Shown here: positions 4,948-34,868 of the stretch, piece after piece | Position numbering within the stretch: position 1 is the first letter of the stretch | Layout of the letters: the number at the start of each line of letters is the position of its first letter | Assembly (NCBI GenBank): GCA_021203065.1 | Contig: JAJQBX010000005.1 | Coordinates: 1-37,633 of the forward strand | DNA: 37,633 bases | Source of the DNA: Oscillospiraceae bacterium | GTDB lineage: Bacteria > Bacillota > Clostridia > Oscillospirales > Ruminococcaceae | Reading direction: 5' to 3' | The notes under the pieces: generated by a model | The model's input: the letters and a program-made list of their open reading frames with translations, nothing else | Told to the model about the DNA's origin: nothing | The model's database searches: none | Program-made: the position numbers and the translations under genes

Positions 4948-5045
4948 GAAAAATTTTTCGGGGAAATATGACGAATTTCCGCCCAGCACGCCCGTCAAAA
5001 CTGGTATTTTCGTGCAAATCAATCACCGAATTGAGGCACAAAGCA

Positions 5046-5091
5046 AAGAAGACGCCTTTTGGCGTCTTCTTCGGTAGCTCGCTTGCGAGCT
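5046..5091 (-). terminator. Double hairpin at the recombinase end
   Basis: An 11-bp perfect stem with a four-base loop (5046-5071, GAAGACGCC TTTT GGCGTCTTC core) is followed after 4 bp by the palindromic hairpin AGCTCGC-TT-GCGAGCT (5076-5091). On the minus strand the 11-bp stem is followed by a T-rich run, so it is probably the terminator of the recombinase transcript. The same paired arrangement, with different stem sequences, occurs beside tRNA-Leu at 15857-15909. Confidence 0.6.
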
Positions 5092-10298: not shown

Positions 10299-10311
10299 GC
10301 TCTTTGCCTCC

Positions 10312-10795
10312 TCAGATAACCCTGACTCTCGTATTCTCAGAATAATACTTGAATATCTCGAACACATTTATCTTTGAGGGGCTATCGGCGAAGCTTGAAT
10401 CACGGAAGACAGCCCTTATCGGCTGCATCTTCGCCATTTCTCTCACGACGCTTTCGGGGACATTCTCCGAGAAGCAAGCCACCAGTTCGCCGTCATTATA
10501 ATTATGGACAGTACAGCCGTCGATAACCCGGCTCTCATAAGGCAAAGAAAGCGGCACGCCCCAATCAACCAAGCATCCAAACAGCAAATCAAGCTCCGAC
10601 CTGTCAGCCTTGATATTATCCTCCATCCTCTCCACCAAGTCCTGACTATACTCATCCGCCGCATAATAAACCTCATTCATATTGGATTCATCCAACTTCA
10701 GCACCCTGAAGCCAATATCGAGATTTTCAGTAGTTAATGGCGACTCGCATTTTATGCGAGTACCCTCCCCGCCGGATTCTCTCTTTTCCGATTTC
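10312..10795 (-). pseudogene. mod: Type III methyltransferase Mod, C-terminal part (frameshifted)
   Basis: This frame continues Mod after a frameshift near 10790. It reads TRIKCESPLTTENLDIGFRVLKLDE, which I recognise as the conserved Mod tail, then an acidic region (YYAADEYSQDLVERMEDNIKAD) and ends with NTRVRVI 13 bp before res. The open frame extends upstream to 10842, but the part above about 10795 does not fit the family. No ribosome-binding site is evident, so it would be expressed only by frameshifting or if the base count is wrong. The tail is the region that normally contacts Res. Confidence 0.75.
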
Positions 10796-19414: not shown

Positions 19415-19492
19415 GGCTCCCCTGTCAAGGGGAGCTGGCAGCCACGAAGTGGCTGACTGAGGGGTGCTATTTTTGGCAACACCGAAAATAGC
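19415..19492 (+). repeat. Modular hairpin repeat, type A
   Basis: The conserved left block GGCTCCCCTGTCAAGGGGAGCT is followed by the variable stem CAGCCACGAAGTGGCTG, the conserved ACTGAGGGGTG and a third hairpin GCTATTTT...AAAATAGC. It fills the gap between nif3 and the GH5 gene. Confidence 0.85.
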
Positions 19493-19498
19493 TCGGCG

Positions 19499-20287
19499 TC
19501 AGCCGATTGTCTTCGCCAAAAAGCTTTCTTTCGAAACTACAAACTCAACTTCTGTAAACTGCTTTCCAAGCTTCTCTTTGAAATACTCCATCGCAATAGT
19601 TTCCGTCTCAAAGTGTCCCGCATCTATGAGAGTGATGCCGAGGCGTTCTGCTTCTATGAAGTCCTGCTGCTTCACATCTCCCGAGATATAGGCATCGCAT
19701 CCCATCTCAAATGCGTTTGTAACGTATGAGCCTCCCGCACCGGAAATCATGCCTACTGTCTTTATATTCCTGCCTCCCGCTACATACTTTATAGCGATGC
19801 AGTCAAATCTCTCTTTACAGAGCCTTGCGAGCTCTTCGGGGGTCATCACACCCTCACATTCGCAGATTGCGCCATAGCCAACAGCTCTGCCGGTGACGGG
19901 GTCAGCTCTGTTCACGTCAACCATCTTATGAATGTTCTTAAGCCCCAGCTTATCCACCATCATATCGCTTATGCCGTATTCTGCGCTGTCCAAGTTAGTG
20001 TGGGACGAGATGCAGGCGATCCCCTTTTTAAATAGTAATGCCGCAGGAACTGTACTGTCAAGGCTCTTAAGCGGGTCAAAGATGACTGGGTGATGGGTCA
20101 AAATCAGCTGACAGCCGAGCTTTTCAGCCTCCAATATAGCCGGAATCGAAGCGTCGAGGGCACAAAGAGCCTTGGTGACCGGTTCATCCCCGTCCCCAAC
20201 CAACAGCCCCGAATTGTCCCAGCTGTCCTGAGTTCGGTAGGGCGCAAAGCTGTCAATATAGTTATAAATGTCTCTTACCGTGGTCAT
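19499..20287 (-). CDS. Nif3-like dinuclear metal centre protein
   Basis: This belongs to the widespread Nif3/YqfO/YbgI family, which binds two metal ions; its physiological reaction remains unsettled. The 262-residue length fits the short form without the inserted PII-like domain. Metal-ligand motifs are visible: LTHHPVIF near residue 63-70, SHTNLDSA near 95-102, and DAGHFETE near the C-terminus. The N-terminal TQDSWDNSGLLVGD is typical. The ATG shares one base with the trmK stop (TAATG) and has GGGAGG upstream, so the two genes are translationally coupled. This trmK-nif3 pairing is common in Firmicutes. Confidence 0.9.
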   Translation of the reverse strand: MTTVRDIYNYIDSFAPYRTQDSWDNSGLLVGDGDEPVTKALCALDASIPAILEAEKLGCQLILTHHPVIFDPLKSLDSTVPAALLFKKGIACISSHTNLDSAEYGISDMMVDKLGLKNIHKMVDVNRADPVTGRAVGYGAICECEGVMTPEELARLCKERFDCIAIKYVAGGRNIKTVGMISGAGGSYVTNAFEMGCDAYISGDVKQQDFIEAERLGITLIDAGHFETETIAMEYFKEKLGKQFTEVEFVVSKESFLAKTIG

Positions 20288-20964
20288 TATTTTACCTCCC
20301 TCAAAAGCTTTTCTATTTCATCTGCAGTCGCTTCGAGCTCCCTGAGCAGATCTCCATCCGGGCTCACTCCTCTGCGCATGCCGTCAGCGGCGTCACGAAG
20401 CCTTTTCACCTGCGCAGAAAGGTACTTTCCCGAAATGCTCTCCCCAAGATCGAGTCCCACTGCCAGACATTCTGCCTGCGTGAGAATTTCTTCGATGCCG
20501 GTGTATCTGGCGTTAATAACCGGGTAGATAAATTTTCCGTCCGCAACGGCTTTCTGCCGGATGACTTCAAAACCATTCCGGGTAAGCCAGTCGACAAGCT
20601 CCCAAGCCCGGGTGTTCGGCTGTAAAATCAGGTTGACTTTTCTCGCCTTATCCCCGCCTTTTTCGAGAATATCCCTTATCATCTCCCCGCCCATTCCGGC
20701 AATGACGACGTCGGTGATGCTCCAATCAGAAAGATTTTCAAAGCCATCGGACAAAATTGTGACGATTCTGTCCTCAAGCCCGGCATCGGAAATATTCTTC
20801 TTTGCAAAAGACAAAGGACCCAAAGCTATGTCGCAGGCATAAGCCCTGTCGCATCTGCCGGAGCTCACGACCGAGATGGGAAGCTTCGCATGGTCGGTTC
20901 CGATGTCGGCTAAAACCCTGCCCCTTAGCATCTCAGAACAGCATAAAAGCCGCTTACTCAGCAT
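20287..20964 (-). CDS. trmK: tRNA (adenine22-N1)-methyltransferase TrmK
   Basis: TrmK methylates N1 of A22 in the D-loop of tRNAs using AdoMet. The start chosen is ATG 20964 (225 residues), giving MLSKRLLCCSEML before the AdoMet motif VLADIGTDHAKLP. A longer frame to 21042 would lie inside the DUF1858 gene. Family motifs include VVIAGMGGEMI and LILQPNTRAWELVDWL. A C-terminal coiled coil follows (LLRELEATADEIEKLL). The gene overlaps the upstream DUF1858 gene by 11 nt and nif3 downstream by 1 nt, so the three form a tight operon. Confidence 0.9.
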   Translation of the reverse strand: MLSKRLLCCSEMLRGRVLADIGTDHAKLPISVVSSGRCDRAYACDIALGPLSFAKKNISDAGLEDRIVTILSDGFENLSDWSITDVVIAGMGGEMIRDILEKGGDKARKVNLILQPNTRAWELVDWLTRNGFEVIRQKAVADGKFIYPVINARYTGIEEILTQAECLAVGLDLGESISGKYLSAQVKRLRDAADGMRRGVSPDGDLLRELEATADEIEKLLREVK

Positions 20965-21184
20965 CGCTGTTTTCACTTTCGGGATGATTCTCTGCGAAGT
21001 AGGCGTTAAGACCCTCCAAAAAGTCCTCAACGTCAACCCCATGCACCGTACAAGCCTCCTCGACCGTCTCGAATAGAGCCGCCGGACAGCTGAAGCAATG
21101 CATTCCTATCTCCATAAACAGATCCACGCACCCACTGTCATAGGCGACGATGTCGTATATCATTGTGTCTTTTGTTATTTCCAT
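20954..21184 (-). CDS. DUF1858 domain protein
   Basis: This 76-residue protein is almost entirely one DUF1858 domain, beginning MEITKDTMIYDIVAYDSG and carrying the MHCFSCPAA cysteine pair. The domain is found alone or beside redox and sulfur-related proteins; its function is not established. A longer frame to 21313 was rejected because its upstream part is translated hairpin repeat, and because GGAGG lies 7 nt before ATG 21184. The stop overlaps the start of trmK. The CxxC may bind metal or undergo redox chemistry, which is inference. Confidence 0.88.
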   Translation of the reverse strand: MEITKDTMIYDIVAYDSGCVDLFMEIGMHCFSCPAALFETVEEACTVHGVDVEDFLEGLNAYFAENHPESENSDAE

Positions 21185-21210
21185 TTTGAATCCTCCTTCG
21201 AAAACCATTT

Positions 21211-21295
21211 GTCGCCCTGCGGGCGACGCGCCTCCCTTTGGTCGGCGCACCCCTCCACCGGCTTCGCCGGTCCCCCTCCCCTTGACAGGGGAGGC
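21211..21295 (-). repeat. Modular hairpin repeat, type B
   Basis: Reading on the minus strand: GCCTCCCCTGTCAAGGGGAGG, a GGACC spacer, the stem CCGGCGAAGCCGG, then TGGAGGGGTGCGCC and two small hairpins (GCGCC...GGCGC and GTCGCC...GGGCGAC). It lies directly upstream of the DUF1858 ribosome-binding site. Confidence 0.85.
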
Positions 21296-21336
21296 AATAG
21301 TCATCCTACGCAAGAAACTGTGGGAGGAGCAATTAT

Positions 21337-21401
21337 GGCTCCCCTGATAAGGGTGAGCGAAGAAGTTCGCTTGCGAACTTCAGCGAAGCTGACTGAGGGG
21401 T
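21337..21401 (+). repeat. Modular hairpin repeat, type A (variant)
   Basis: GGCTCCCCTGATAAGGGTGAGC, the variable stem AAGTTCGCTTGCGAACTT, a second short stem (AGCGAAGCTGA) and the conserved CTGAGGGG. The first stem is weakened by an inserted T. It lies between the DUF1858 operon and the zinc-ribbon terminator. Confidence 0.75.
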
Positions 21402-21446
21402 TCTCCCTCTCATTATACTCCATCCCAACCATCTTTTCAACCCCAA

Positions 21447-21476
21447 AAGAAAAATCGGCGGGGGTTATCCGCCGAT
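21447..21476 (-). terminator. Terminator of the zinc-ribbon gene
   Basis: ATCGGCGG (21454-21461) pairs perfectly with CCGCCGAT (21469-21476). On the minus strand it is followed by TTTTCTTTT, a standard intrinsic terminator about 20 bp after the stop codon. Confidence 0.88.
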
Positions 21477-21497
21477 GAAAGTCTTGGTTCGCCTGAA

Positions 21498-21764
21498 TCA
21501 GCCTTGTCTCTGCTTGGCAAAGCACTCGCTGCAATATACAGGGCGGTCGTCGTGGGGCTTGAAGGGGACTCTTGCTTCCTTGCCACAGGATGCACAGACA
21601 GCTGTGTAGTACTGCTTGCCCTCTTCCTTCTTAGCTCTTCTGCAATCCTTGCACATCTTGGGCTCGTTCTCGAAGCCCTTTTCTGCATAGAATTCCTGCT
21701 CGCCGGCTGTAAAAACGAATTCTTTTCCGCAATTACGGCATACCAATTTCTTGTCTTCGTACAT
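21498..21764 (-). CDS. Two-zinc-ribbon protein
   Basis: The 88-residue protein holds two zinc ribbons. The first is CRNCGKEF with KMCKDC (four cysteines at about 9, 12, 38 and 41). The second is CASCGKEARVPF with VYCSEC (about 57, 60, 76 and 79). This duplicated CxxC pattern is recognised in small zinc-ribbon proteins of Clostridia, often near cold-shock-like or ribosome genes, but its function is unknown. The start ATG has GAGGG at 6-nt spacing. It is monocistronic, with a clear terminator downstream. Confidence 0.82.
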   Translation of the reverse strand: MYEDKKLVCRNCGKEFVFTAGEQEFYAEKGFENEPKMCKDCRRAKKEEGKQYYTAVCASCGKEARVPFKPHDDRPVYCSECFAKQRQG

Positions 21765-21810
21765 ATTATTCCCTCACTTCATAGTATTTGCCGTGCGGAC
21801 TAAACCTGCA

Positions 21811-21836
21811 ATTGAGCGTTAAAATTGAGCGTTAAA
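21811..21836. repeat. 13-bp tandem duplication
   Basis: ATTGAGCGTTAAA occurs twice in direct succession in the leader of the zinc-ribbon gene. The 213-bp gap 21765-21977 holds nothing else firm. A 12-bp direct repeat CCGCTCAGCTCC at 21947 and 21974 spans the sigma-factor stop codon. Confidence 0.8.
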
Positions 21837-21977
21837 ACAGTCTTTGCGAATTAGTAAACATGGCTTGATTATATTATAGAACCCGGGGAACGGGTTTCTA
21901 CCGAAAATAAATATCCGGGACAAAGGGCTCGGCACTTCTCGTGCCACCGCTCAGCTCCGTACTTTGCGTCCCTCCGC

Positions 21978-22511
21978 TCAGCTCCTGAGCTTCCTCCTGA
22001 TTCTCTGAAGAGCGTTGTCGACCGATTTCGGGGTTATCCCAAGCTCTTTTGCCGCTTCAGAATGGCTCTTCCCCTCAAGATAGCATCTTAAGACGCTTCT
22101 TTCAAGCTCCGAGAGCCTGCTACGGGCAATCCTCATGAGCTCGTCCGTCTCCTCGCTCGAAATGAGAATACTTTCGGGAGAACCGTGGTCGGCTATCTCA
22201 ATATCCTCAATCGGCTCTTCGCTGCCCCTTATCCGGGTGGATTTCCGAAGAGAATTCAGCATGCGGTTGTTGATACAGGAATAGGCATACGTCCCGAATA
22301 ATGCGCCCTTGCTCCCGTCGTAGGTCTTGACGGCGTTCATAAGCCCCATGAGCCCCTCCGAACAGAGGTCGTCATAGTCGCACCCACTTGCGGATTTTCC
22401 CGCAGAATAGATTCCTGCAAGGCGTCTTACCGTTTCAAGATGTCTCGAAACAAGCTCAGAATACGCTCCCTCGTCGCTTGAGGCGATCTCAATAAGCTCA
22501 GTGTCGGTCAT
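21978..22511 (-). CDS. Sigma-70 family factor (SigH-like)
   Basis: This alternative sigma factor directs RNA polymerase to a subset of promoters. Region 2 is visible as DYDDLCSEGLMGLMNAV followed by FGTYAYSCINNRMLNSL, and region 4 as LSELERSVLRCYLEGKSHSEAAKELGITPKSVDNALQRIRRKL, a helix-turn-helix. With the start at ATG 22511 it has 177 residues. An in-frame ATG at 22556 is possible, but would fall only a few bases from the start site predicted from the promoter at 22567-22595. The frame beyond that is not coding. Its place just after ftsZ resembles the sigma genes next to ftsZ in spore formers, but the region 2/4 arrangement is closer to SigH than to SigE or SigG. The regulon cannot be read from the sequence. 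Confidence 0.82.
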   Translation of the reverse strand: MTDTELIEIASSDEGAYSELVSRHLETVRRLAGIYSAGKSASGCDYDDLCSEGLMGLMNAVKTYDGSKGALFGTYAYSCINNRMLNSLRKSTRIRGSEEPIEDIEIADHGSPESILISSEETDELMRIARSRLSELERSVLRCYLEGKSHSEAAKELGITPKSVDNALQRIRRKLRS

Positions 22512-22566
22512 CGCCCGATACTCATCCTGCCTCAACCGAACCACCCCGCACTTCATTTCATCTTTT

Positions 22567-22595
22567 ATAATAACATTAATAAGCACAAAAGTCAA
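22567..22595 (-). promoter_or_regulatory. Promoter of the sigma-factor gene
   Basis: TTGACT (22590-22595) and TATTAT (22567-22572) on the minus strand have a 17-bp spacer. Transcription would begin near 22560, making the upstream candidate start codon (22556) nearly leaderless and favouring 22511. The promoter shows the sigma factor is expressed separately from ftsZ. Confidence 0.75.
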
Positions 22596-22660
22596 GTAGT
22601 TTTTGCAATAATTGAAAATTTTTTTGTTTCTCCTCAAATACCTGTGAGAGAATACAAAAA

Positions 22661-22738
22661 GCCTCCCCTGATAAGGGGAGGGGGACCGCCGGCGTAAGCC
22701 AGTGGTGGAGGGGTGCTCTCCGGCAAAGCCGAAGAGCC
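22661..22738 (+). repeat. Modular hairpin repeat, type B
   Basis: GCCTCCCCTGATAAGGGGAGG, GGGACCG, a stem CCGGCGTAAGCC(A)G, TGGTGGAGGGGTGC, and a terminal hairpin GCTCTCCGGC...GCCGAAGAGC. It fills the gap between the ftsZ stop and the sigma-factor promoter and may double as a terminator for ftsZ. Confidence 0.85.
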
Positions 22739-22746
22739 CACAATTA

Positions 22747-23820
22747 TTACTTGAACAGCTCTCTCCAGATTCCATCATAGATAGTCTCGTTCTCGTCAGG
22801 CTTGCTCTTCTGCTCCTCGCTCGGAGCTTCAGAAGAAGCCTCCTCACCCTCCTCAGCAGGAACGGTGTAGGTGTCGAAGTCAGAAGCGATGACGATGATG
22901 TCGATGGTGTCGGAAAGGTCTTCCTTGAAGTCAGCACCGAAGATGAGGTCGACGTCCTCAGCTGCAGCCTTGGTGATGGTGTCGGTGAGCTCGGCGATGT
23001 CGCCAGTTCCGATGTCCTCGCTCATAGTGATGTTGATAAGAAGTCTCTTTGCACCCTTGATGGAGGTCTCGAGAAGCGGGCTTGAGATGACCTGCTGAAC
23101 AGCGTCAGCAACCTTGTCCTTGCCCTCGCCGTGACCGATTGCCATGTGGGCATAGCCTGCGTTAGACATGATAGACTTGACGTCCGCAAAGTCGACGTTG
23201 ATTTCGCCGTGTCTAAGAATAAGCTCGGTTACACTCAGAACTGCGGTCTTTAAGATGTCATCAGCCAAGCCGAACGACTGACGCATTGTAAGGTTCTCTC
23301 TGCCAGTTAAAAGCTTCTGGTTAGGAATTACTACGAGCGAGTCGACGTTCTTGACAAGAGCATCGATTCCTCTGTCAGCCTGAGCCGCCTTTCTCTTGCC
23401 CTCAAAGGCAAAAGGCTTTGTGACAACAGCAACAGTGAGAATACCCATATCACGGGCAATCTCAGCGACCACGGGAGCAGCACCAGTTCCAGTGCCACCG
23501 CCCATACCGGCTGTGATGAATATCATATCAGCACCCTTTAAGGTGTCCTGAATTTCGTCCTTTGACTCCTGAGCGGCAGCCTCGCCAACCTCAGGCTTTC
23601 CACCTGCGCCAAGACCGTGGGTCAGCTTCTGACCGATCTGGATCTTGGAGGTAGCTTTAGAATTCTTGAGAGCCTGAGCGTCGGTATTGATAGAAATGTA
23701 CTCAACATTCTGAATTCCCGTCGCCACAATGCAGTTCAAAGCGTTTCCGCCGCCGCCGCCAACTCCGACGACTTTGATTTTTGCAAGGTCAATGCCTTCA
23801 TTTTCCATGATAAAGCCCAT
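22747..23820 (-). CDS. ftsZ: Cell division protein FtsZ
   Basis: FtsZ is the tubulin-like GTPase that forms the division ring at midcell. ATG 23820 was chosen (357 residues) because GGAGG lies 8 nt upstream; the frame to 23862 would translate the heptamer repeat. Key motifs are [13 protein letters not shown] (residues 17-29), NTDAQAL, the tubulin signature GGGTGTG (107-113), and FAFEGKRK. The C-terminal linker is acidic ([15 protein letters not shown]). The final peptide [11 protein letters not shown] differs from the usual DIPxFLR-type tail that binds FtsA, in keeping with the absence of ftsA here. It is the last gene of the dcw cluster and has its own promoter. Confidence 0.95.
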
Positions 23821-23846
23821 TTCTACTTCCTCCAATAGTCTATAAT

Positions 23847-23880
23847 AATGTACAATGTACAATGTACAATGTACAATTGT
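23847..23880. repeat. 7-bp-period repeat GTACAAT
   Basis: Four GTACAAT units lie head to tail in the ftsZ leader, just upstream of the ribosome-binding site. The sequence differs from the GCATTAC arrays elsewhere in the window, but the 7-bp period and A+T-rich make-up are the same. Confidence 0.85.
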
Positions 23881-23898
23881 CTAATGTACAAATCCTGT

Positions 23899-23956
23899 GC
23901 CGCCTCAGGCGGCTGATATATACATCTATTGTAACACGAAAATCTCGGTTTGGCAA
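23899..23956 (-). promoter_or_regulatory. ftsZ promoter and leader hairpin
   Basis: On the minus strand, TTGCCA (23951-23956) and TACAAT (23928-23933) are 17 bp apart in the ftsQ-ftsZ gap. Just downstream in the transcript, GCCGCC (23899-23904) pairs with GGCGGC (23908-23913), forming a stable 5-prime hairpin that could protect the messenger. This gives ftsZ expression independent of the rest of the cluster. Confidence 0.75.
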
Positions 23957-23985
23957 TAGTTTTGTGAGATTATTTCGCAATATTT

Positions 23986-24867
23986 TTATTCTTCCGCTTC
24001 TTCGGACGCTTCGGTGTCCTCGGTGTCGGTCATATTCTCGATAATCTCCTTGCTCTGCTCGAGCTCCTCAAGTCCCTCCGTGGGGATGAACGATACGCCG
24101 GAGGACGAGCTGATATAGATAAGCTTTCCGGTTGCATCGGCATCAAGGTTCGCCTCGATTATTGTAATCAGATAGCGCATCTTGTATTCATAGTCGAGCG
24201 AGCTTCCGAAATCAATCTCGATTCTGCCGTTGTCATAGCTCATGATTATGTCGGTACGGTCGGTTATGTCTATATAATCAATCTTATCCGGGCAAATCTC
24301 GTCTATAACGTCAAGAAGATTCATGATGATTGTCTTCTTGTTCTCATCAGAGGAGGTGAACTCGTCGCCAAGTGAGACGTCTATAAGGTCTAAGCCGTAA
24401 ATCTGCAAAAGCTCCTCATTCGGCTCTGCCTGCTCTGTGCTCAAATATCTTCCGCTTCTGCTGATGACGGCATAGCGGTTTCCCTCGTACTGACAGCAGG
24501 CGAACTCCTCCGCTTCGGTTATCTCTATCACGATAGTCCCCGGGAGCTCTCTTGAAACGGTGACGTCGTCGATATATATGAGTGCTTTTTTGATTCTCTG
24601 CGCCGTCGCACTCAGGTCGATATTGTAGAGGTTTTCGCTGTCACTCAAACCTGCGGCGGCTAAGATTTCCGATTCGGAATAGCGGGAGTTGCCAGAAATC
24701 TCGTAGTTCTCAACCTTGAAAAAAACGGTTCTCGAGAGGATATAGAGGATAATAACCGAGACGACAAACAGCATAAGATAGTAAAGGGACATATTTCCAC
24801 GGCGTCTGCGTCTTCTTTTGCGTCTTCGCTGTCCAGCCTGTGGATTCGTCTTTACAACGTCCTGCAC
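23986..24867 (-). CDS. ftsQ: Cell division protein FtsQ/DivIB
   Basis: FtsQ (DivIB) is a bitopic membrane protein of the divisome that links FtsL and FtsB/DivIC to septal wall synthesis. The chosen GTG at 24867 has AAAGGAGG at 8-nt spacing; the first ATG is 25 codons later. Residues 1-24 are a strongly basic cytoplasmic tail (RRRKRRRRRR), residues 28-48 are the membrane helix, and the POTRA domain follows (FFKVENYEISGNSRYSESEI). The C-terminal tail is acidic (DTEDTEASEEAEE). It lies 16 bp after murA. Confidence 0.9.
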   Translation of the reverse strand: MQDVVKTNPQAGQRRRKRRRRRRGNMSLYYLMLFVVSVIILYILSRTVFFKVENYEISGNSRYSESEILAAAGLSDSENLYNIDLSATAQRIKKALIYIDDVTVSRELPGTIVIEITEAEEFACCQYEGNRYAVISRSGRYLSTEQAEPNEELLQIYGLDLIDVSLGDEFTSSDENKKTIIMNLLDVIDEICPDKIDYIDITDRTDIIMSYDNGRIEIDFGSSLDYEYKMRYLITIIEANLDADATGKLIYISSSSGVSFIPTEGLEELEQSKEIIENMTDTEDTEASEEAEE

Positions 24868-24883
24868 CTTGTCGTCCTCCTTT

Positions 24884-26143
24884 CTAAATCCTCTTTATAT
24901 CTGCTCCCACCGATGAAAGAGCGGTTTCTATGCTCTCATATCCTCTGTCTATATAGTGTGTGTTTAAAATCTCGCTCTGACCCTCAGCTCCAAGTGCCGC
25001 AACAACAAGTGCCGCACCTGCCCGCAGGTCATATGCCCGGGCTTTTGCACCATAGAGCTTTTTAACGCCCTCAATAACTGCGACCTTGCCCTCAGCCTTG
25101 ATATTTGCGCCCATTCTTCTCAGCTCAGGAGCAGCCATAAAGCGGTTCTCAAAGATATTCTCGACAATAACGCTTGTGCCGGAGGATTTACTGAGCACCG
25201 CCATCACAATAGGCTGGCAGTCGGTAGGAAATCCGGGATAGGGCATGGTCCTGACAGTCCTTACAGCCGTTATCGGCTTTCTTGCGCTTATAAAAATCTT
25301 GTCGTCATATGGATAGACCCCACAGCCCATCTCGGAAAAGACCGACATGCAGGAATACATATCCTGAGGTCTCACGCCCCCAAGCATCAGCTCGCCCCGG
25401 GTTATCGCCGCCGCACCCATATAGGTTGCCGCCTCGATTCTGTCCGGCATAACAGTATATTCACAGCCGTGAAGCGACGGGACGCCGTCTATCACGAGCG
25501 TCGAAGTCCCCTGACCTGTGATTTTTGCGCCACATTTTATCAAGTACCCCGCCAAATCGGCTATCTCCGGTTCTCTTGCGGCGTTTCTGATGACCGTTTC
25601 GCCAGAGCCAAGAGCCGAATAGAGCATTATATTCTCCGTCGCCCCGACCGACGGGAGCGAAAGGGTTATATCTGCGCTCTGGGGTCTTACTCCCGCAGTG
25701 CAGTCCAAGATTCCGTGGTCTTCCGTTATCCTGACGCCAAGCCTCCTGAGGGCTTCGAGGTGCAGATCAATCGGTCGTGGTCCTAACTCGCACCCGCCGG
25801 GGAATGAAAGCCGGCACCTGCCAACTCTTCCCAAGATAGCTCCCAAGAACACAATCGACGAGCGCATTTCGTGCATAAGCCCGTCAGAAACAATGTCGCC
25901 CTCAGCGTCAGCCGAATTGACAGTAACGGTGCTCCCCTCATGAGAAATCGTGCACCCAAGAGACCTGAGAATTCTCATAGCGGCAAAGGCATCGGAAAGA
26001 GATGCACTGTTATGTATCACGCTGGTACTTCCACACAAAAGCGTTGCCGCTAATATCGGCAATACACTATTCTTTGCTCCGTGGATTCTTAATTCTCCCT
26101 CAATTCTCCTGCCGCCCTCAATCAAAAGCCTGCTACTCTCCAT
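24884..26143 (-). CDS. murA: UDP-N-acetylglucosamine 1-carboxyvinyltransferase
   Basis: MurA transfers enolpyruvate from PEP to UDP-GlcNAc, the first committed step of peptidoglycan synthesis, and is the fosfomycin target. The start ATG 26143 has GGGAG 8 nt upstream, giving 419 residues. The catalytic cysteine is in FPGGCELGPRPIDLH, so fosfomycin could react. The N-terminal HGAKNSVLPI carries the lysine that binds substrate, and the C-terminal region DLRAGAALV is typical. Firmicutes often carry two murA genes; this is the copy in the dcw cluster, between murG and ftsQ, in the place often taken by murC or murB. Confidence 0.94.
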   Translation of the reverse strand: MESSRLLIEGGRRIEGELRIHGAKNSVLPILAATLLCGSTSVIHNSASLSDAFAAMRILRSLGCTISHEGSTVTVNSADAEGDIVSDGLMHEMRSSIVFLGAILGRVGRCRLSFPGGCELGPRPIDLHLEALRRLGVRITEDHGILDCTAGVRPQSADITLSLPSVGATENIMLYSALGSGETVIRNAAREPEIADLAGYLIKCGAKITGQGTSTLVIDGVPSLHGCEYTVMPDRIEAATYMGAAAITRGELMLGGVRPQDMYSCMSVFSEMGCGVYPYDDKIFISARKPITAVRTVRTMPYPGFPTDCQPIVMAVLSKSSGTSVIVENIFENRFMAAPELRRMGANIKAEGKVAVIEGVKKLYGAKARAYDLRAGAALVVAALGAEGQSEILNTHYIDRGYESIETALSSVGADIKRI

Positions 26144-26212
26144 CTCAACCGCTCCCAAAACATGATGTTATAGAGCATAATATGATGGGATGGGGATTTG
26201 GGTGACGGAAAG

Positions 26213-26304
26213 GCAGTTCGGCAAAGCCGAACTGCGCTATTTTCGGCGTTGCCGAAAATAGCACCCCTCAGGCACTTCGTGCCAGCTCCCCTTATCAGGG
26301 GAGC
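26213..26304 (-). repeat. Modular hairpin repeat, type A
   Basis: On the minus strand: GGCTCCCCTGATAAGGGGAGCT, the stem GGCACGAAGTGCC, CTGAGGGGTGC, then two further hairpins (GCTATTTTCGGC...GCCGAAAATAGC and GCAGTTCGGC...GCCGAACTGC). Between this copy and the next lie two more perfect stems, AAGTTCGCTTTGCGAACTT (26310-26328) and AGAAAGAACG...CGTTCTTTCT (26329-26352). The 332-bp murA-murG gap is almost wholly such hairpins and holds no gene. Confidence 0.88.
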
Positions 26305-26386
26305 CAATAAGTTCGCTTTGCGAACTTAGAAAGAACGATAAAGCGTTCTTTCTCTTGTTCTCTCGATGTTTTGAGGAATTTCTTAA

Positions 26387-26473
26387 GCCTCCCCTGACAA
26401 GGGGAGGGGGACCGCCGACGAAGTCGGTGGTGGAGGGGTGCGCCCCGCAAGGGGCGCGTCGGCGAAGCCGACA
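26387..26473 (+). repeat. Modular hairpin repeat, type B
   Basis: GCCTCCCCTGACAAGGGGAGG, GGGACCG, the stem CCGACGAAGTCGG, TGGTGGAGGGGTGC, then hairpins GCGCCCCGCAAGGGGCGC and GTCGGCGAAGCCGAC. It ends 2 bp before the murG stop codon. Confidence 0.88.
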
Positions 26474-26475
26474 AA

Positions 26476-27609: not shown

Positions 27610-27626
27610 AATTTTCTCCTATCAAA

Positions 27627-28901: not shown

Positions 28902-28917
28902 AGCGTTCGCCCCCAAT

Positions 28918-28949
28918 AATTACGAATTACGCATTACGCATTACGAATT
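28918..28949. repeat. 7-bp-period repeat encoding the MraY C-terminus
   Basis: GAATTAC and GCATTAC units fill the ftsW-mraY junction. On the minus strand they supply the last MraY residues (IRNA) and its stop codon, and the copy lies immediately upstream of the ftsW start. Confidence 0.85.
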
Positions 28950-29953
28950 GACAACCACGTTGCCAAAACACCCAGCACGCCTGCCGCCAGAGTCACACCC
29001 GAGAACACCCAGAGAATCTTATACTCGCTCCAGCCGCAGAGCTCGAAGTGGTGGTGGATGGGTGCCATCTTGAAGACTCTCTTGTGCCTTATCTTGAAGC
29101 TTGCAATCTGAATTAAATCGGAGAGCATTTCAATAACATAGATGATTCCGACGAGCGGCATGAGAAGCTCAAGCCCTGACGCCATTCCCATGGCGACCAC
29201 TGCGCCGCCAAGGAACATCGAACCGGTGTCGCCCATGAAAACCTTTGCGGGGTGCAGATTCCAGATAAGAAATCCTAAGCATCCTCCTGCTACCGCCATC
29301 GAAAATGCGCTCATCTCCCAGTTGTCCAAAAGCACGAATATCAGTACAAACGCCAGCGAATAAACAGTAGTGACCGAGCCCAAGAGCCCGTCTACGCCAT
29401 CCGTAAAATTAACAGCGTTGACGAGTAAATAGATGCACACGCCCATCAGCGGATAGTAGAACCATCCAAAATCGACCTCTCCGATAAACGGGAACACGAC
29501 CGAGGTGGTATTTCCAAGGAAGTGAAGTGCCACAAGATAGCCGACAACTATCACAACCTGCATTACAGTCTTCGCCTTGACGCTTAAGCCAAGATTTCTC
29601 TTCTTGACCACTTTGATATAGTCGTCAATAAAGCCGACCAGCATGAAGAGCATCGACACTCCGACAGCCAGAAGTAGCTTCCAGCCTGCGTTTTCCGGTG
29701 TATCTATCATGTGTGCCGAGCGGTAAGCCTTTATGATAAGATAGCCGATCCAAGTGCATATCGGCACTGACAGGATAAACATAAATCCGCCCATAAGAGG
29801 CGTTCCCTCTTTTGACTTGTGCCAAGCAGGACCGATGTCCAGTATATGCGACCCTGCTTTGAGCTTACGTAGATACGGAATGAGTATCACCCCGAGAGCC
29901 CCCGCAATCACCGCTGACAGTATTCCGACTATAATGTTAATCCAGTATGGCAT
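28934..29953 (-). CDS. mraY: Phospho-MurNAc-pentapeptide transferase MraY
   Basis: MraY transfers phospho-MurNAc-pentapeptide to undecaprenyl phosphate, making lipid I. The 339-residue, ten-helix membrane protein has the catalytic aspartates FIDDYIK (near residues 107-113), NAVNFTDGVDGL, and the histidine motif MAPIHHHFE. The start ATG follows GAAGGATG. The last five residues (SIRNA) are encoded by the heptamer repeat, so the native C-terminus has been replaced or trimmed by it. In many clusters murF and murD flank mraY; neither is present here. Confidence 0.95.
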   Translation of the reverse strand: MPYWINIIVGILSAVIAGALGVILIPYLRKLKAGSHILDIGPAWHKSKEGTPLMGGFMFILSVPICTWIGYLIIKAYRSAHMIDTPENAGWKLLLAVGVSMLFMLVGFIDDYIKVVKKRNLGLSVKAKTVMQVVIVVGYLVALHFLGNTTSVVFPFIGEVDFGWFYYPLMGVCIYLLVNAVNFTDGVDGLLGSVTTVYSLAFVLIFVLLDNWEMSAFSMAVAGGCLGFLIWNLHPAKVFMGDTGSMFLGGAVVAMGMASGLELLMPLVGIIYVIEMLSDLIQIASFKIRHKRVFKMAPIHHHFELCGWSEYKILWVFSGVTLAAGVLGVLATWLSIRNA

Positions 29954-29980
29954 GGTTTTTCATCCTTCTTTGTGCTAATT

Positions 29981-30069
29981 GTCGCCCTGCGGGCGACGCG
30001 CCTCCCTTTGGTCGGCGCACCCCTCAGTCAGCTGCTTCGCAGCTGCCAGCTCCCCTTATCAGGGGAGCC
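29981..30069 (-). repeat. Modular hairpin repeat, type A
   Basis: On the minus strand: GGCTCCCCTGATAAGGGGAGCT, the stem CAGCTGCGAAGCAGCTG, ACTGAGGGGTGC, then hairpins GCGCC...GGCGC and GTCGCC...GGGCGAC. The terminal hairpins match those of the type B copy at 21211, so modules are shared between the types. Confidence 0.88.
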
Positions 30070-30097
30070 TTATTGCGTTCTATGAGAGTTTGCTAAT

Positions 30098-30184
30098 GGC
30101 TCCCCTGCCAAGGGGAGCTGTCGCCGCAGGCGACTGAGGGGTGTGCGAGCCTGCAAGGCGAGCACGGTTCGGCGAAGCCGAACC
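30098..30184 (+). repeat. Modular hairpin repeat, type A
   Basis: GGCTCCCCTGCCAAGGGGAGCT, the stem GTCGCCGCAGGCGAC, TGAGGGGTG, then hairpins GTGCGAGCC...GGCGAGCAC and GGTTCGGCGAAGCCGAACC. It faces the copy at 29981 in inverted orientation, so the two together could form a long duplex in the murE-mraY gap. Confidence 0.88.
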
Positions 30185-30186
30185 TT

Positions 30187-30218
30187 AATTACGCATTACG
30201 CATTACGAATTACGCATT
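30187..30218. repeat. 7-bp-period repeat encoding the MurE C-terminus
   Basis: Units GCATTAC, GCATTAC, GAATTAC and GCATT. On the minus strand this encodes the last MurE residues (MRNS) and the TAA stop at 30203-30205. Confidence 0.85.
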
Positions 30219-31657
30219 TCTTTCAATGCCTCAGCAACTACCTCACGCTCATCAAAATGTATCTTCCCCGTAGAAAGAATCTGATAATCCTCGTGACCTT
30301 TGCCGCAGAGGACTATGACGTCGTCCTTTCGGGCGTTCTTTATTGCCCAGAAGATGGCTTCACGGCGGTTGTCTATTTCAATATATTCCTTGAAGCCGGG
30401 GGAAAGACCGGCTATTATGTCCTCGATTATGGCGTGGGGATCTTCGCTTCGGGGGTTATCAGAGGTGATGACGAGAAAATCTGCGCCCTCGGCAGCCGCT
30501 TTCGCCATCAGTGGACGCTTTTTTGCATCCCTGTCTCCTCCGCAGCCGAAGAGGCAGACGATTCTTGTATCAGCTCCTGCGCTTTCACGGACGTTGTTTA
30601 AAATATTCGTGATAGCATCCGGCGAATGGGCATAGTCGATGATGACGGTGAAATCTCTTCCCGTCGGAACTACTTCGCACCTGCCCCTGACGCCGTTTAT
30701 CTTCGAGATGAGCGGAACAGTCTTATCAGCACCGATTCCCGCAAGCTCCAAAACAGCTATAGCAGTCATCGTGTTCGAGACGTTGTAGCTTCCCGGGAGA
30801 GGAATGTCGACCTTATAGCTCTTGAGGGCGTTCGAGTACCAGTAGGTGCTCTCGTGCGCCGAAAGCTTTATCATGTCGGCATAGAAATCGGCTTCTTTTC
30901 TTATCGAAAGGGTGTATTTCGGGCAGTCTATTTCGTTAAAGAGCCTCTCGCCATACGGGTCGTCGATGTCGATGACGGCATTCTTGCTCCTCGAGAAGAG
31001 AAGCTTCTTCGCCTGATAGTAGTTTTCCATACTGCCATGAACGTCGAGGTGATCCTGAGTCAGATTGAGAAAAGCCGAAACCTCGAAGACGCACTTTCCA
31101 AGCCTCTCCTGCTCAAGTCCCTGAGAGGAAGCCTCCATAACAGCATACTCACAGCCCGCATCGACCATTTCGCTTAAGAGCCCGAAGAATTCATTCGGCA
31201 TGGGTGTTGTGTTCTCAGCGTGGATGTGGCGGTCAACTACCTCGTTTCCGCATGTTCCTATGAGCCCCGCCTTGATACCGAGGGCGTCAAGAAGCCGCTT
31301 TATGACGGTGGTAGTGGTGGTCTTGCCGTTAGTTCCGGTGATACCGATGAGCTTGAGCTTACGCTCCGGGTTGTGATACCAGTTAGCCCAGAGGGTGGAA
31401 AGAGCAAGCCTTGTGTCCCGAACGACTATCTGGTGCTCCTCTCCGCAGTCATGCTCGACAACAAAGACCTGAACGCCCCTTTTACTCAGCTCCCCAACAG
31501 AATCATGCGCATCAAACTTAGCCCCCTTGAGGGCGACAAAGAGCGTCGACTCAGAAACCTCGTCCCTTGAGTCGGAGGAAATCTTGTCAATTTCGATATT
31601 CGGAATATCCTCCGGAGTAACGGTGCATATCCCGGATAACAGGTCGTATAGTTTCAT
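30203..31657 (-). CDS. murE: UDP-MurNAc-tripeptide synthetase MurE
   Basis: MurE adds the third residue of the stem peptide. ATG 31657 was chosen (484 residues, MKLYDLLSGI); the frame to 31729 would translate a hairpin repeat. Visible motifs are the N-terminal SSDSRDEV substrate-binding region, the ATP loop GITGTNGKTTTT, and TSDNPRSEDP. DNPR is the signature of the meso-diaminopimelate-adding type, so the wall is predicted to be DAP-cross-linked. The C-terminus ends in the heptamer repeat (MRNS). The gene follows the PBP gene after two hairpin repeats; murF, which usually follows, is missing. Confidence 0.95.
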   Translation of the reverse strand: MKLYDLLSGICTVTPEDIPNIEIDKISSDSRDEVSESTLFVALKGAKFDAHDSVGELSKRGVQVFVVEHDCGEEHQIVVRDTRLALSTLWANWYHNPERKLKLIGITGTNGKTTTTTVIKRLLDALGIKAGLIGTCGNEVVDRHIHAENTTPMPNEFFGLLSEMVDAGCEYAVMEASSQGLEQERLGKCVFEVSAFLNLTQDHLDVHGSMENYYQAKKLLFSRSKNAVIDIDDPYGERLFNEIDCPKYTLSIRKEADFYADMIKLSAHESTYWYSNALKSYKVDIPLPGSYNVSNTMTAIAVLELAGIGADKTVPLISKINGVRGRCEVVPTGRDFTVIIDYAHSPDAITNILNNVRESAGADTRIVCLFGCGGDRDAKKRPLMAKAAAEGADFLVITSDNPRSEDPHAIIEDIIAGLSPGFKEYIEIDNRREAIFWAIKNARKDDVIVLCGKGHEDYQILSTGKIHFDEREVVAEALKEMRNS

Positions 31658-31683
31658 TTTCTCACACCCTTTCGTGTGGTAGT

Positions 31684-31764
31684 TGTCGCCTGACGGCGAC
31701 GCGCCGACTGCGTCGGCGCACCCCTCCACCGGCTTCGCCGGTCCCCCTCCCCTTGACAGGGGAG
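31684..31764 (-). repeat. Modular hairpin repeat, type B
   Basis: On the minus strand: CTCCCCTGTCAAGGGGAGG, GGGACC, the stem CCGGCGAAGCCGG, TGGAGGGGTGC, then GCGCCGACGCAGTCGGCGC and GTCGCCGTCAGGCGAC. It lies just upstream of the murE ribosome-binding site. Confidence 0.88.
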
Positions 31765-31806
31765 ACTTTTTGTTCTTCTATCATAAGCTTTGATAGAGGC
31801 AGTTAT

Positions 31807-31893
31807 GGCTCCCCTGATAAGGGGAGCTGTCGGCAAAGCCGACTGAGGGGTGTGCGAGCCCGCAGGGCGAGCACGTCGCCGCACAGCGGCGAC
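31807..31893 (+). repeat. Modular hairpin repeat, type A
   Basis: GGCTCCCCTGATAAGGGGAGCT, the stem GTCGGCAAAGCCGAC, TGAGGGGTG, then GTGCGAGCCCGCAGGGCGAGCAC-type and GTCGCCGC...GCGGCGAC hairpins. It lies about 20 bp after the PBP stop codon. Confidence 0.88.
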
Positions 31894-31915
31894 TAATTAA
31901 GCCTTTCGGCGTTTA

Positions 31916-34150
31916 TCAACCAGAGTCCTCATTAACAACAAAGTACGCCTCGATAATCGTGCCTACCTCTACCGTCGTTCCGACCGAGTAGTTTGAGGTG
32001 CCGGAGCAGACGGCTCCGGATTTCTGCGCCGCTCCGCCGAGCGGCAGAAGATTGAGTCCGGCGTTCGACAGCAATCTGTTTGCCTCCGAAAGCGAACAGC
32101 CGGATATATCGGGTACGGTCGTGTACTGGACGTCATAGTCCTCATCGGTGTAGACGACAACCGTACACCCGGTCGGCATGGTGCTTCCGCTTGAGGGCAC
32201 CTGCCTTATCACCGTGTCTCCACTTCCTATTACCTCAATCTCAAGCCCCAAAGCTTCAAGAGTCGAAGTAGCCTGCTCAACGGTTGAGCCTCTTATGTAA
32301 GGAACGGAAACGTCCATATCCTCAAGATCCTCTTCTGTATACTCCGCATAGTACCCGAGGTACGGCAGAATATCCGAAAGAGCTTCAACGACAACCGGTG
32401 CGGCAACGGCTGAGCCGTAGTAAAGACCGTTTGTCGGCTCGTCGACCATGACGAGCATTATTATCTCCGGGTCATCGGCGGGATAGAAAGCGACGTATGA
32501 GGAGACATAGGTGCTTCCTGTTGAATCCTCGTCAAGCTTCTGGGAGGTTCCCGACTTTCCGCCGATGCGGTAGCCCTTGATATAGGCATTGCTGCCCGAA
32601 TTGGTGTTTACAACAGTTTCGAGAACCTCACGCATCGTTTCGGAGGTCTCCTCCGAGATTACCTGCCGCTTGATGGTGGTCTCGTTCTGCATTATGATAT
32701 TTCCCTCGCTGTCGACAACCTTGTCTACAACGTATGGGGTCACGAGATAGCCGCCGTTGATGACCGCCGCAAATGCGCATATCATCTGGATAGGAGTTAT
32801 CTTGTTTGCCTGACCGAACGAGCTCGAAGCCAGATTTACAAGCGTCATGCTGTCCGAGTCGATATAAAGGCTGTTCGACTCTGCAGGAAGGTCGATTCCC
32901 GTCTTCTGCGTCAGTCCGAAAGCCTCGAAATATTTGCAGAATGCCTTTGCGCCGAGCTTCTGCCCTATCTGGACGAATGCCGGGTTGCAGGAGTTGGTCA
33001 TAGCCTCAACAAAGGTCTGAGAGCCGTGAGAGCTCGAGCTCCAGCAGTGGTAAATGGTGTCCATGACGGTTATAGAGCCGGAGCAGGTGAATGTGTTGCT
33101 TAAGCTGATTGCGTTCTCCTCAAGAGCCGCAGAGCCGGTTACAACCTTGAAAACAGAACCGGGAAAGTATAGGCTCGAGATAGCCTTGTTCGTCCACTGT
33201 GTGTAGAGCGATTCGGAAAGAGCCGCACTGTATTCCTCGTCGGTGGCTGTGTCTGAAAGCCCTGCTAGGTACTCAGAAAGCGATTCATCGGTTACAACCG
33301 ACGGCTCGTTTAAGTTATACGTCGGAGAGGAAGCCATCGCCAGAATTTCTCCCGTCTTGCAGTTCATGACAATTGCGCATGCGCCGTCCTCAGGGTCGTT
33401 CGAGGAGACAGCATTGGCAAGTGCCTCTTCAACATAATACTGAATCGTGGCGTCTATAGTCGAATAGACCGAATAGCCGTCGACCGCGTCGTAGCTCGAC
33501 TTGTACTTATACTGGATTTCCGAGCCGTTTGCGTCGATAGCGGTGACGATTGCGCCGTCAGTACCGGTGAGGTAATCGTCATAGTAAGACTCGATTCCAT
33601 AGATGCCGTAGCCGTCATAGTGAAGATGCCCGATAACATTCGCCGCCAAGTCGTCCTGAGGATAGTATCTTTCTGTAGTGGCTGTCGCCGCAACAGAGGT
33701 GATTCCCGCCTCGCTCATGATTGTTAAGATTTCTGTGGCGGTGGTCTTGTCTACCTCGGTAGCTATTACCTGATAGGCGTTGTCCTTATTCAGCTTTTCT
33801 TCTATGACATCCTCGTCGACGTCAAGATATTCTGAAAGAGTCTCAACGATGAGGTCCTTCTGGTCGGTGTCTCTGTCACGATATGTAGTCGGGTCGACAT
33901 AGACAGTGTAGACCGTCACGCTCTGCGCCAGAACCTGACCGTTTGCATCGTAAATTGTTCCTCTTGTTGCACTGATGGTTGTTGTTTTGAACTGCTGCTC
34001 GTTGGCTAACGCCTGATACTTTGCACTGTCCACGACTGCGACCTGATACATAGCGTATGACACATACACAAGTGCCGCCATCATGATAAGCAGCAATGGT
34101 ACCAGCAGTCGCCGCTTCATTTTTGGAGTCGGTTTGTTTTGTTCTGCCAT
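31916..34150 (-). CDS. Class B penicillin-binding protein with PASTA domains (SpoVD/PBP2x-like)
   Basis: This transpeptidase cross-links septal peptidoglycan outside the membrane, working with a SEDS polymerase. Of its 744 residues, 1-12 are cytoplasmic and 13-35 form the membrane anchor. A dimerisation domain follows (ATRGTIYDANGQVLAQS, 61-77). The transpeptidase domain has SVFK (Ser332, Lys335), SCN (387-389) and KSGT (532-535). Two C-terminal PASTA repeats (from about 620 and 690) bind wall fragments or beta-lactams. The position between ftsL and murE is that of ftsI/pbpB or spoVD. The start ATG follows AGGA. Whether it acts in vegetative division or spore cortex formation cannot be told. 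Confidence 0.93.
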   Translation of the reverse strand: MAEQNKPTPKMKRRLLVPLLLIMMAALVYVSYAMYQVAVVDSAKYQALANEQQFKTTTISATRGTIYDANGQVLAQSVTVYTVYVDPTTYRDRDTDQKDLIVETLSEYLDVDEDVIEEKLNKDNAYQVIATEVDKTTATEILTIMSEAGITSVAATATTERYYPQDDLAANVIGHLHYDGYGIYGIESYYDDYLTGTDGAIVTAIDANGSEIQYKYKSSYDAVDGYSVYSTIDATIQYYVEEALANAVSSNDPEDGACAIVMNCKTGEILAMASSPTYNLNEPSVVTDESLSEYLAGLSDTATDEEYSAALSESLYTQWTNKAISSLYFPGSVFKVVTGSAALEENAISLSNTFTCSGSITVMDTIYHCWSSSSHGSQTFVEAMTNSCNPAFVQIGQKLGAKAFCKYFEAFGLTQKTGIDLPAESNSLYIDSDSMTLVNLASSSFGQANKITPIQMICAFAAVINGGYLVTPYVVDKVVDSEGNIIMQNETTIKRQVISEETSETMREVLETVVNTNSGSNAYIKGYRIGGKSGTSQKLDEDSTGSTYVSSYVAFYPADDPEIIMLVMVDEPTNGLYYGSAVAAPVVVEALSDILPYLGYYAEYTEEDLEDMDVSVPYIRGSTVEQATSTLEALGLEIEVIGSGDTVIRQVPSSGSTMPTGCTVVVYTDEDYDVQYTTVPDISGCSLSEANRLLSNAGLNLLPLGGAAQKSGAVCSGTSNYSVGTTVEVGTIIEAYFVVNEDSG

Positions 34151-34204
34151 TTTGATTCCTTTCTCCGAAAATTTTCACGATTCGCCATTTTGCCTCTGAC
34201 TGAA

Positions 34205-34253
34205 GAAAGCTAAGTTTACCCTTCAATATTCAAGAAGGCAAAACTTAACTTTC
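34205..34253 (-). other. Long hairpin between ftsL and the PBP gene
   Basis: GAAAG-C-TAAGTTTACCCTTC (34205-34224) pairs with GAAGGCAAAACTTA-A-CTTTC (34234-34253), giving about 17 pairs with three mismatches around a 9-base loop. It is unlike the GC-rich modular repeats. It may control expression of the PBP relative to ftsL; no clear T-run follows. Confidence 0.5.
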
Positions 34254-34287
34254 CCTCGATACTATCAACAATACTTACTATATTTGC

Positions 34288-34791
34288 TCAGAAGCCAAGA
34301 TATTCGAATATATCACTGAACCAGTTCTTCAGAATTACGAATATATTCGAGCTTTCCGTCTCAACGACTTCTATGACAGTGTCCCCCTCAACCTCGACGT
34401 ATTCTATCTGGGATTTGTCTAACTTCTCAAGTCCTAAAACGTTCTGGGCATATTCCTCAACGCTCTTTAGCGAGGTTTTCGACTCATATTCAGCAGCCAA
34501 GCTTGCATTGTCGCTCTCTATCTCGGAAAGTGTGCTTTCGAGTGCCGAAATCTCGCTGAAAAGCCGGTTGGTCTCAACCTTGCCGTAAAGAAGTGCGAAC
34601 ATGACCGCAAGAACAACTGCCGCAGTCACAAATATGGTGAAAAGATTCTGCGGAAGCGCAATTGTATTATGCCGTATCTCGATACGGGGCTTAGCCTTCG
34701 GCTCAGCCTTAGGCTGAGTTTTAGGCACAACATTGCTCTTCGGCTCATACACCGACAGATCATAAGCTAAATTGTCGTCACGGTATGCCAT
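34288..34791 (-). CDS. ftsL: Cell division protein FtsL-like
   Basis: This small bitopic divisome protein partners FtsQ/DivIB and DivIC. The 167 residues comprise a cytoplasmic tail with repeated charged motifs (KTQPKAEPKAKPRIEIR), one membrane helix at about 50-69 (LFTIFVTAAVVLAVMFALLY), and a coiled coil (EISALESTLSEIESDNASL) with a NVLGLEKLDKSQIEYV motif typical of FtsL. A longer than usual C-terminal tail ends NWFSDIFEYLGF, which may be amphipathic. Identification rests on topology and on position between rsmH and the PBP gene, since FtsL sequences diverge widely. Confidence 0.82.
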   Translation of the reverse strand: MAYRDDNLAYDLSVYEPKSNVVPKTQPKAEPKAKPRIEIRHNTIALPQNLFTIFVTAAVVLAVMFALLYGKVETNRLFSEISALESTLSEIESDNASLAAEYESKTSLKSVEEYAQNVLGLEKLDKSQIEYVEVEGDTVIEVVETESSNIFVILKNWFSDIFEYLGF

Positions 34792-34817
34792 TACTTCACA
34801 TCCTTCTTGAGGGAAGA

Positions 34818-34868
34818 ACCCCTCAGTCAGCCACTTCGTGGCTGCCAGCTCCCCTTATCAGGGGAGCC
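34818..34868 (-). repeat. Modular hairpin repeat, type A (short)
   Basis: On the minus strand: GGCTCCCCTGATAAGGGGAGCT, the stem CAGCCACGAAGTGGCTG, ACTGAGGGGTT. It has the same stem as the copy at 19415 but no trailing hairpins. It fills the rsmH-ftsL gap. Confidence 0.85.

Follow-up and report, generated by a model that had tools for sequence, protein, structure and literature searches.

Hairpin half-elements in the dcw cluster of an Oscillospiraceae bacterium and their association with genes of the DUF559 nuclease family

In this work, we describe hairpins occupying the gaps of a dcw cluster in an Oscillospiraceae bacterium, which are probably non-autonomous mobile elements. They would belong to a widespread bacterial class, the gene-bearing members of which encode a small, stand-alone nuclease of the DUF559 family. 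The analysed stretch of 37,633 nucleotides (contig JAJQBX010000005.1 of assembly GCA_021203065.1; hereafter, the window) carries mraZ, mraW, an ftsL/divIC-like gene, a gene for a penicillin-binding protein (PBP), murE, mraY, ftsW, murG, murA, ftsQ and ftsZ with their neighbours. It belongs to a genome rated as 100% complete (G000; other G-numbers denote relatives), and the nearest named-record relatives of its MraY are metagenome-assembled genomes of Clostridia, Oscillospiraceae and Ruminococcus, with a top identity of 58%, very near records possibly being omitted. The association supplies abundant intergenic hairpin repeats with a partner gene, none being known to us so far. It also points to a function that DUF559, a common domain without an assigned role, may have, and makes this enzyme a candidate agent of a new kind of DNA movement.

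Structure, abundance and covariation of the hairpin halves

The initial annotation of the window listed eleven hairpin copies with shared blocks, an A/B split and variable stems. All eleven are present and have these features, with the correction that the unit is a half: the eleven halves occupy seven window sites, and a complete copy consists of two halves in inverted orientation. Each half starts with the hairpin H1, whose 5′ arm is composed of pyrimidines, proceeds to the hairpin H2, which varies from copy to copy, and ends with a G-rich block. H1 is GCTCCCCTnnnAAGGGGAGC in type A and CCTCCCC..GGGGAGG in type B, and the block is CTGAGGGG in A, GGTGGAGGGG in B, CTGAGAGG followed by G in C, and CTGAGAGG followed by T in D. 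Thus, H1 and the block are conserved and H2 is not; possible tags at the foot of the palindrome were viewed by eye only. Beyond the block, extra hairpins are often present in various combinations, several of them bearing, as judged by eye, a GA/GA mismatch pair inside variable stems. If the block is taken as the element end, inverted terminal sequences are present (CACCCCTC...GAGGGGTG).

The survey of the own genome covered 21 stretches (429 kb), namely the window and 20 others picked for holding hairpins. It yielded 106 halves with a perfect H1 (58 of type A, 30 of B, 11 of C and 7 of D), a requirement that excluded the window halves at 21336 and 31720. Sixty-two of these halves form 31 inverted pairs, 25 of which join A with B, and 44 are single. 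Of 137 adjacent −/+ pairs counted, 122 have a spacer shorter than 100 bp. As a further correction to the initial annotation, the family is spread over the whole genome, with 70 exact copies of GCTCCCCTNNNAAGGGGAGC (31 on the plus and 39 on the minus strand). The reversed pattern gave 0 copies, and a generic finder detected 94 halves in the real 429 kb vs. 0 in the block-shuffled sequence, so that a chance origin is excluded. The expected preference for gaps was also evident: 95 of the 106 halves lie mainly outside open reading frames (ORFs) of at least 120 aa, such DNA making up 16.1% of the 429 kb. Furthermore, CTCCCCTNNNAAGGGGAG is present in 104 copies in the own genome and was found in 13 of the 60 genomes searched (own included), all 13 from the same genus, its copy number varying between species from 0 to 104. 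The lone match in G027 differs in its loop and is perhaps due to chance, and the reversed control gave 3 matches in two genomes. At the level of the order, AGGGGAGCTG-N6-30-CTGAGGGG occurs in 43 of 394 genomes and in 24 of 168 genera.

The stems of H2, represented by 48 distinct versions among the 106 own-genome halves, covary as initially proposed. In 31 distinct 31-mers from 19 genomes of the order, sampled among the matches listed, 95.2% of the cells were paired vs. 76.7% upon shuffling, and two-sided changes numbered 31 vs. 7.7; neither observed value was reached in any of 500 shuffles, and the slid controls showed 12–55% pairing. One reading is that pairing in H2 is kept by selection, for example for shape recognition, and arm-to-arm template switching may give the same pattern. 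With its many natural hairpins bearing compensatory changes, the family supplies a test bed for selection vs. arm-copying. A separate test of loops and stems picked foldable stems, so that its 100% pairing arises by construction and the 31-mers provide the fair test of covariation. On the block strand, the H2 loops in G000 comprised 29 GNA and 0 TNC (46 distinct foldable stems, 45 with a closing C-G pair), and those in G002 comprised 15 GNA and 1 TNC (18 distinct stems). A GNA triloop closed by a C-G pair is unusually stable in DNA, and the abundance of GNA loops therefore fits a fold in single-stranded DNA. The other fold suggested at the outset, a pairing of H1 with the distal block, gained modest support from the longest complementarity (mean 5.28 nt vs. 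4.78 nt for shuffled partners, sd 0.07; 94 distinct pairs), but not in the 7 type D halves, which reach only 3 nt.

The strong covariation and the intergenic position would also befit host RNA elements under selection, such as terminators, mRNA stabilisers or processing sites. However, the halves show no orientation preference between tandem genes (25 co-directional, 31 anti-directional), there is no T-run after the blocks as inspected by eye, and the sites lack the element in relatives. Nor did the Rfam covariance models give any match above the gathering score at the hairpins of the window and of ten DUF559 loci; a Gut-1 match in one of the loci (L307) is not located at a half, and a search at a lax threshold gave one RAGATH-25 match (20 bits, E 0.54). 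The terminator or processing role considered in the initial annotation is thus not favoured, in view of the polymorphic sites and the lack of strand bias, and we regard a host RNA function as very improbable.

Genes of the DUF559 family between and beside the halves

Inverted pairs with a long spacer led to DUF559 (PF04480), a family of Vsr/EDxHD-like nucleases of about 125 aa, as an ORF of this family lies between two halves in the own genome (L127) and in G014 and G030. A scan of nine ORFs located between distant halves gave two DUF559 proteins, one weak antitoxin match and no transposase. Within the genus, full-length PF04480 matches number 12 and come from 9 of 31 genomes, all nine hairpin-positive, and all 12 genes are placed between or beside halves, 10 of them with a recognised half on both sides; four weak partial matches are located away from halves. 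Within the order, PF04480 was found in 121 of 394 genomes: in 31 of the 43 with the hairpin pattern (two via weak matches only) vs. 90 of the 351 others (P 3e-9).

The order-level set comprised 70 loci, the first 30 and 40 of the next 47 entries (7 skipped) of a longer match list that continues further; two loci (L279 and L333) were dropped as no ORF was recognised in them. Among the resulting 68 loci, a half was found within 350 bp on both sides in 31 and on one side in 18, i.e., 49 loci have at least one, and 28 of the 31 both-sided loci are arranged as H1-H2-block > ORF < block-H2-H1. Within 200 bp of the DUF559 gene, the density of halves in the 40-locus part is 3.7/kb, falling to 0–0.15/kb beyond 1 kb; the background dcw loci (L001–L080) gave 9 halves in 1.40 Mb and 4 after shuffling. 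Matched hairpins flank DUF559 genes on both sides in 11 of 12 cases in the genus, 43 of 68 in the order and 13 of 26 full-length cases in viral contigs, vs. 1/116, 0/53 and 0/938 for the control ORFs. Moreover, at 20 of the 68 order loci the ORF runs into the right half at its 3′ end (in L275, for instance, the C-terminal QSLSQLR and the stop are specified by CAATCCCTCAGTCAGCTTCGCTGA), and the script-chosen start lies 4–15 nt past the purine block in 20 of the 33 loci with a forward left half. This indicates that the gene is fitted to, or fused with, the element. At this distance, the purine block may act as a ribosome-binding site.

The same layout recurs in Deinococcus, Alphaproteobacteria and Cyanobacteria, as recognised by eye. 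Among 36 plasmid records with a DUF559 match, eleven were opened, chosen for spread. As inspected by eye, eight of them are flanked by hairpins on each side (two Deinococcus, two Sphingomonas, Sinorhizobium, Synechocystis, Pseudanabaena and Novosphingobium), the Azospirillum record has a left flank only, and Photobacterium and one E. coli record have a right flank only. Of three phage records, two were opened: a gut clone shows hairpins on its left flank, and phage Tunturi_2 has none. In the phylum (398 genomes), six of the seven full-length matches outside the order were viewed, and five of them have, by eye, a hairpin flank on one side or both; at the sixth, L422, a different repeat is present, and six weaker matches (L423–L428) have no hairpin flanks. 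The protein profile also detected relatives at 57 loci in viral contigs, many of them distant. The hairpin pattern was found in 96 viral stretches, with one DUF559 gene beside a half (L206) among those inspected.

The end types of the elements are related to the nucleases they carry. Both ends belong to the same block class in 33 of 41 elements vs. 8.7 upon shuffling. In a quickly built tree comprising 61 DUF559 proteins (52 with a named block class; 36 of 58 inner branches weak), block class required 16 changes vs. 32.5 shuffled, and host family 29 vs. 35.7. Without the window's genus, the values were 14 vs. 23.2 for block class and 28 vs. 30.1 for host family, i.e., family is near random and class is not. 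The GAGAGGG block class forms one branch (support 92) spanning the host families f1, f14 and f16, and in the window's genus three distinct lineages of DUF559 go with the A/D, B and C ends, L251 being the one mixed case. Thus, the end type follows the nuclease tree.

This bears on the possibility that the hairpins are miniature inverted-repeat transposable elements (MITEs) of some ordinary transposase, with DUF559 as a frequent passenger. In favour of this reading, antitoxin-like small ORFs are also found between halves, and few mobility families were searched. However, end type and nuclease clade travel together across host families, and the DUF559 link recurs in several phyla (by eye). We consider an ordinary transposase with a DUF559 passenger quite unlikely. 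A gene-bearing relative with the same ends, as would be expected for a MITE, is represented by the DUF559 elements themselves.

The intergenic inverted pairs of palindromic units, the approximately 100 H1 hairpins and their varying number between species also recall REPINs moved by the REP-associated tyrosine transposase (RAYT), which the initial annotation proposed to look for. No PF01797 match was found in G000 or in five hairpin-rich relatives (G001, G002, G009, G020 and G028), and 7 of the 8 genomes with PF01797 among the 31 of the genus are hairpin-free, so we give practically no credence to RAYT as the mover. The resemblance to the REPIN/RAYT model (PMC3116915) lies in short palindromic units in inverted pairs with many intergenic copies, in a partner gene beside matching units, and in a partner type that tracks the unit type. 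In contrast, the partner here is a PD-(D/E)XK/Vsr-like DUF559 nuclease rather than a Y1 tyrosine transposase, H2 is conserved in shape and not in sequence, and the outer hairpins are variously combined. Mosaic palindromic intergenic repeats are likewise represented by BIME, RIME and BOX, for which, to our knowledge, there is no nuclease partner. A search of the open literature by title and start of abstract, with subscription journals outside its range, found no publication joining DUF559 to hairpin repeats.

Several further observations concern DUF559 genes and their surroundings. Small antitoxin-like ORFs lie between two halves at L136:13766-14062 (−), L137:14307-14549 (−) and L248:5680-5865 (+); the first matches Phd/YefM weakly (E 0.057), and the other two read into a half. 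Repeated gene-less type C elements adjoin the DUF559 gene in L262 and L263. PADLOC gave weak partial matches only. Some DUF559 elements reside within gene clusters (L393, L401 and L394): in two Deinococcus plasmids they lie among hpa genes at two different points, and the Sphingomonas element of this group is between transhydrogenase subunit genes. The Sinorhizobium gene (L395) has repeats beside it, and a DUF559 gene beside mam in Faecalibacterium is noted in a published report (PMC8836110).

Mobility of the elements and a possible mechanism

The synteny comparison included ten relatives with MraY 91–96% identical to that of the window, some contigs missing some gaps. At all seven window sites the element is missing in 2–5 of up to ten relatives, thus indicating that the elements are mobile. 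For instance, the mraY-murE gap is 252 bp in the window and 12–13 bp in G009, G014, G025, G026 and G030; in G001, G020 and G028 it is filled with other hairpin elements, and in G006 with a repeat of a different family. Between murE and the PBP gene, the window copy (half at 31808) shares its outer hairpins with G001 and G028 and differs in the inner part, so that modules are exchanged at a standing site. A site downstream of a 513-aa gene exists in three states: with a DUF559 element in G000 and G009, with a type D element lacking the gene in G001 and G002, and empty in G006, G014, G025 and G030; no clear answer was obtained from G020, G026 and G028. An anchor protein of the locus L124 has no orthologue in the ten relatives. 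That the window element stems from a phage or plasmid was rejected, because only partial DNA matches to 9 phage records and 1 plasmid were obtained.

Two PDB chains were matched by the DUF559 profile: 3hrl, an endonuclease-like protein (E 3e-25), and 3r3p (E 2.3e-4), which bears the label “mobile intron protein” and which we take to be the EDxHD homing endonuclease I-Bth0305I. The residues invariant among 23 aligned DUF559 proteins include D51, E62, D64, H68, D77 and R80. DUF559 thus resembles the EDxHD enzymes of the I-Bth0305I type (PMC3943268) in being the small nuclease of a mobile element with detectable homology to 3r3p; unlike them, it sits in hairpin elements and not in introns, and the aligned active-site letters differ. 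This homology brings in the possibility that DUF559 is a homing endonuclease invading hairpin elements that are moved otherwise: it would cut the gene-less resident, gene conversion would copy the gene in, and modules would be shuffled. Such a view accords with the site that is empty, gene-less or gene-bearing across relatives, with the position of the ORF in either kind of spacer, and with modules that differ at an orthologous site having common outer hairpins. However, gene-bearing elements are also present at the site that is empty in four relatives, and the gene and the element ends overlap. We consider homing unlikely, though serious enough to be kept in mind.

Returning to the elements as DUF559-dependent mobile DNA, we suppose that the nuclease would recognise H1/H2 as folded single-stranded DNA and cut at or near the block, whereupon repair would copy the element into a new or an already occupied intergenic site; the gene-less copies would be moved by DUF559 in trans. 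Tentatively, and with slightly less than even confidence, we suggest a new class of mobile DNA in several phyla, where shape-recognised hairpin halves are moved by a DUF559 nuclease with no DDE, HUH, serine or tyrosine chemistry, and where many pyrimidine/purine hairpin repeats would be gene-less copies. If the nuclease does move the element, an enzyme of about 125 residues and a folded end would make a very small mobility system.

A number of observations weigh against DUF559 as the mover. No target-site duplication was evident in the inspected junctions (the window sites and the three-state site), where the flanks have diverged and no systematic search was made, and the mobility-gene families searched were PF01797 and PF04480 only. 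In the genus, the co-occurrence of DUF559 with hairpins is confounded by descent; G010, G020 and G026 have 16, 34 and 10 hairpins, respectively, and no DUF559 match, and in G000 the DUF559 nuclease is of the A-end kind only, despite the many B ends there. No half was found at 19 of the 68 order loci and no matched pair at 25 of the 68, and the half-finder recognised halves on both sides at 3 and on one side at 3 of the 57 viral-contig loci, more being visible by eye. The ORF lies between two H1s in 5 of the 12 genus loci according to the finder (7 by eye) and elsewhere between two blocks, so that the element ends are not fixed by these data; L251 combines an A half at one flank with a B half at the opposite one. 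In the alignment with 3r3p, E is kept, and D and H of ExDGxxH differ. Finally, Caulobacter VsrA, a protein of the same DUF559 family, has been reported as a Vsr-like repair enzyme and proposed to act in mismatch repair, with no hairpin element mentioned in the part of the source at hand (PMC12907096).

Half-elements and neighbouring features in the window

The following halves occupy the seven sites of the window. A single type A half at 19416..19492 (+) comprises H1, H2 and the block CTGAGGGG followed by the outer hairpin H3 (GCTATTTT..AAAATAGC); its site is without the element in G001, G006, G014, G026 and G030. The inverted pair 21250/21336 includes a type B half at 21210..21294 (−), with two outer hairpins (21210-21248) outside the block, and a type A half at 21336..21401 (+), which has an extra hairpin inside and was recognised by eye, since its imperfect H1 escapes the finder; the element is absent from this site in G001, G006, G026 and G030. 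The single type B half at 22662..22713 (+) has no counterpart in G006, G009, G014 and G030, where another, terminator-like hairpin is present instead.

The pair 26264/26388 consists of a type A half at 26215..26304 (−), with outer hairpins at 26215-26262, and a type B half at 26388..26473 (+), also with outer hairpins, and is missing in G006, G009, G026, G028 and G030. Both halves of the pair 30020/30099 are of type A, one at 29980..30068 (−) with two outer hairpins and the other at 30099..30183 (+) with outer hairpins; G009, G014, G025, G026 and G030 lack the element at this site. The pair 31720/31808 combines a type B half at 31720..31764 (−), the H1 of which is one pair below the consensus, with a type A half at 31808..31893 (+) bearing outer hairpins, and its site is free of the element in G026 and G030. 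The single type A half at 34819..34867 (−) lies between the mraW stop and the ftsL-like start, and its site lacks the element in G001, G006, G025 and G030.

A second repeat family, TGTAGGGGCGGATATNATCCGCCCG...CGGGCGGATAATATCCGCCCCTACA, whole or partial, is likewise polymorphic in the same dcw gaps (L086, L085, L081, L083 and L089). Short tandem repeats AATTACGNATTACG occur in the window at 28917-28949 and 30186-30218, i.e., at the edge of one element and in a neighbouring gap, and similar repeats adjoin elements in other genomes. In its part preceding the dcw cluster, the window bears genes for a type III-like restriction subunit (RE_endonuc, ResIII; 7245-10367, −) and a serine recombinase (4886-6274, −).

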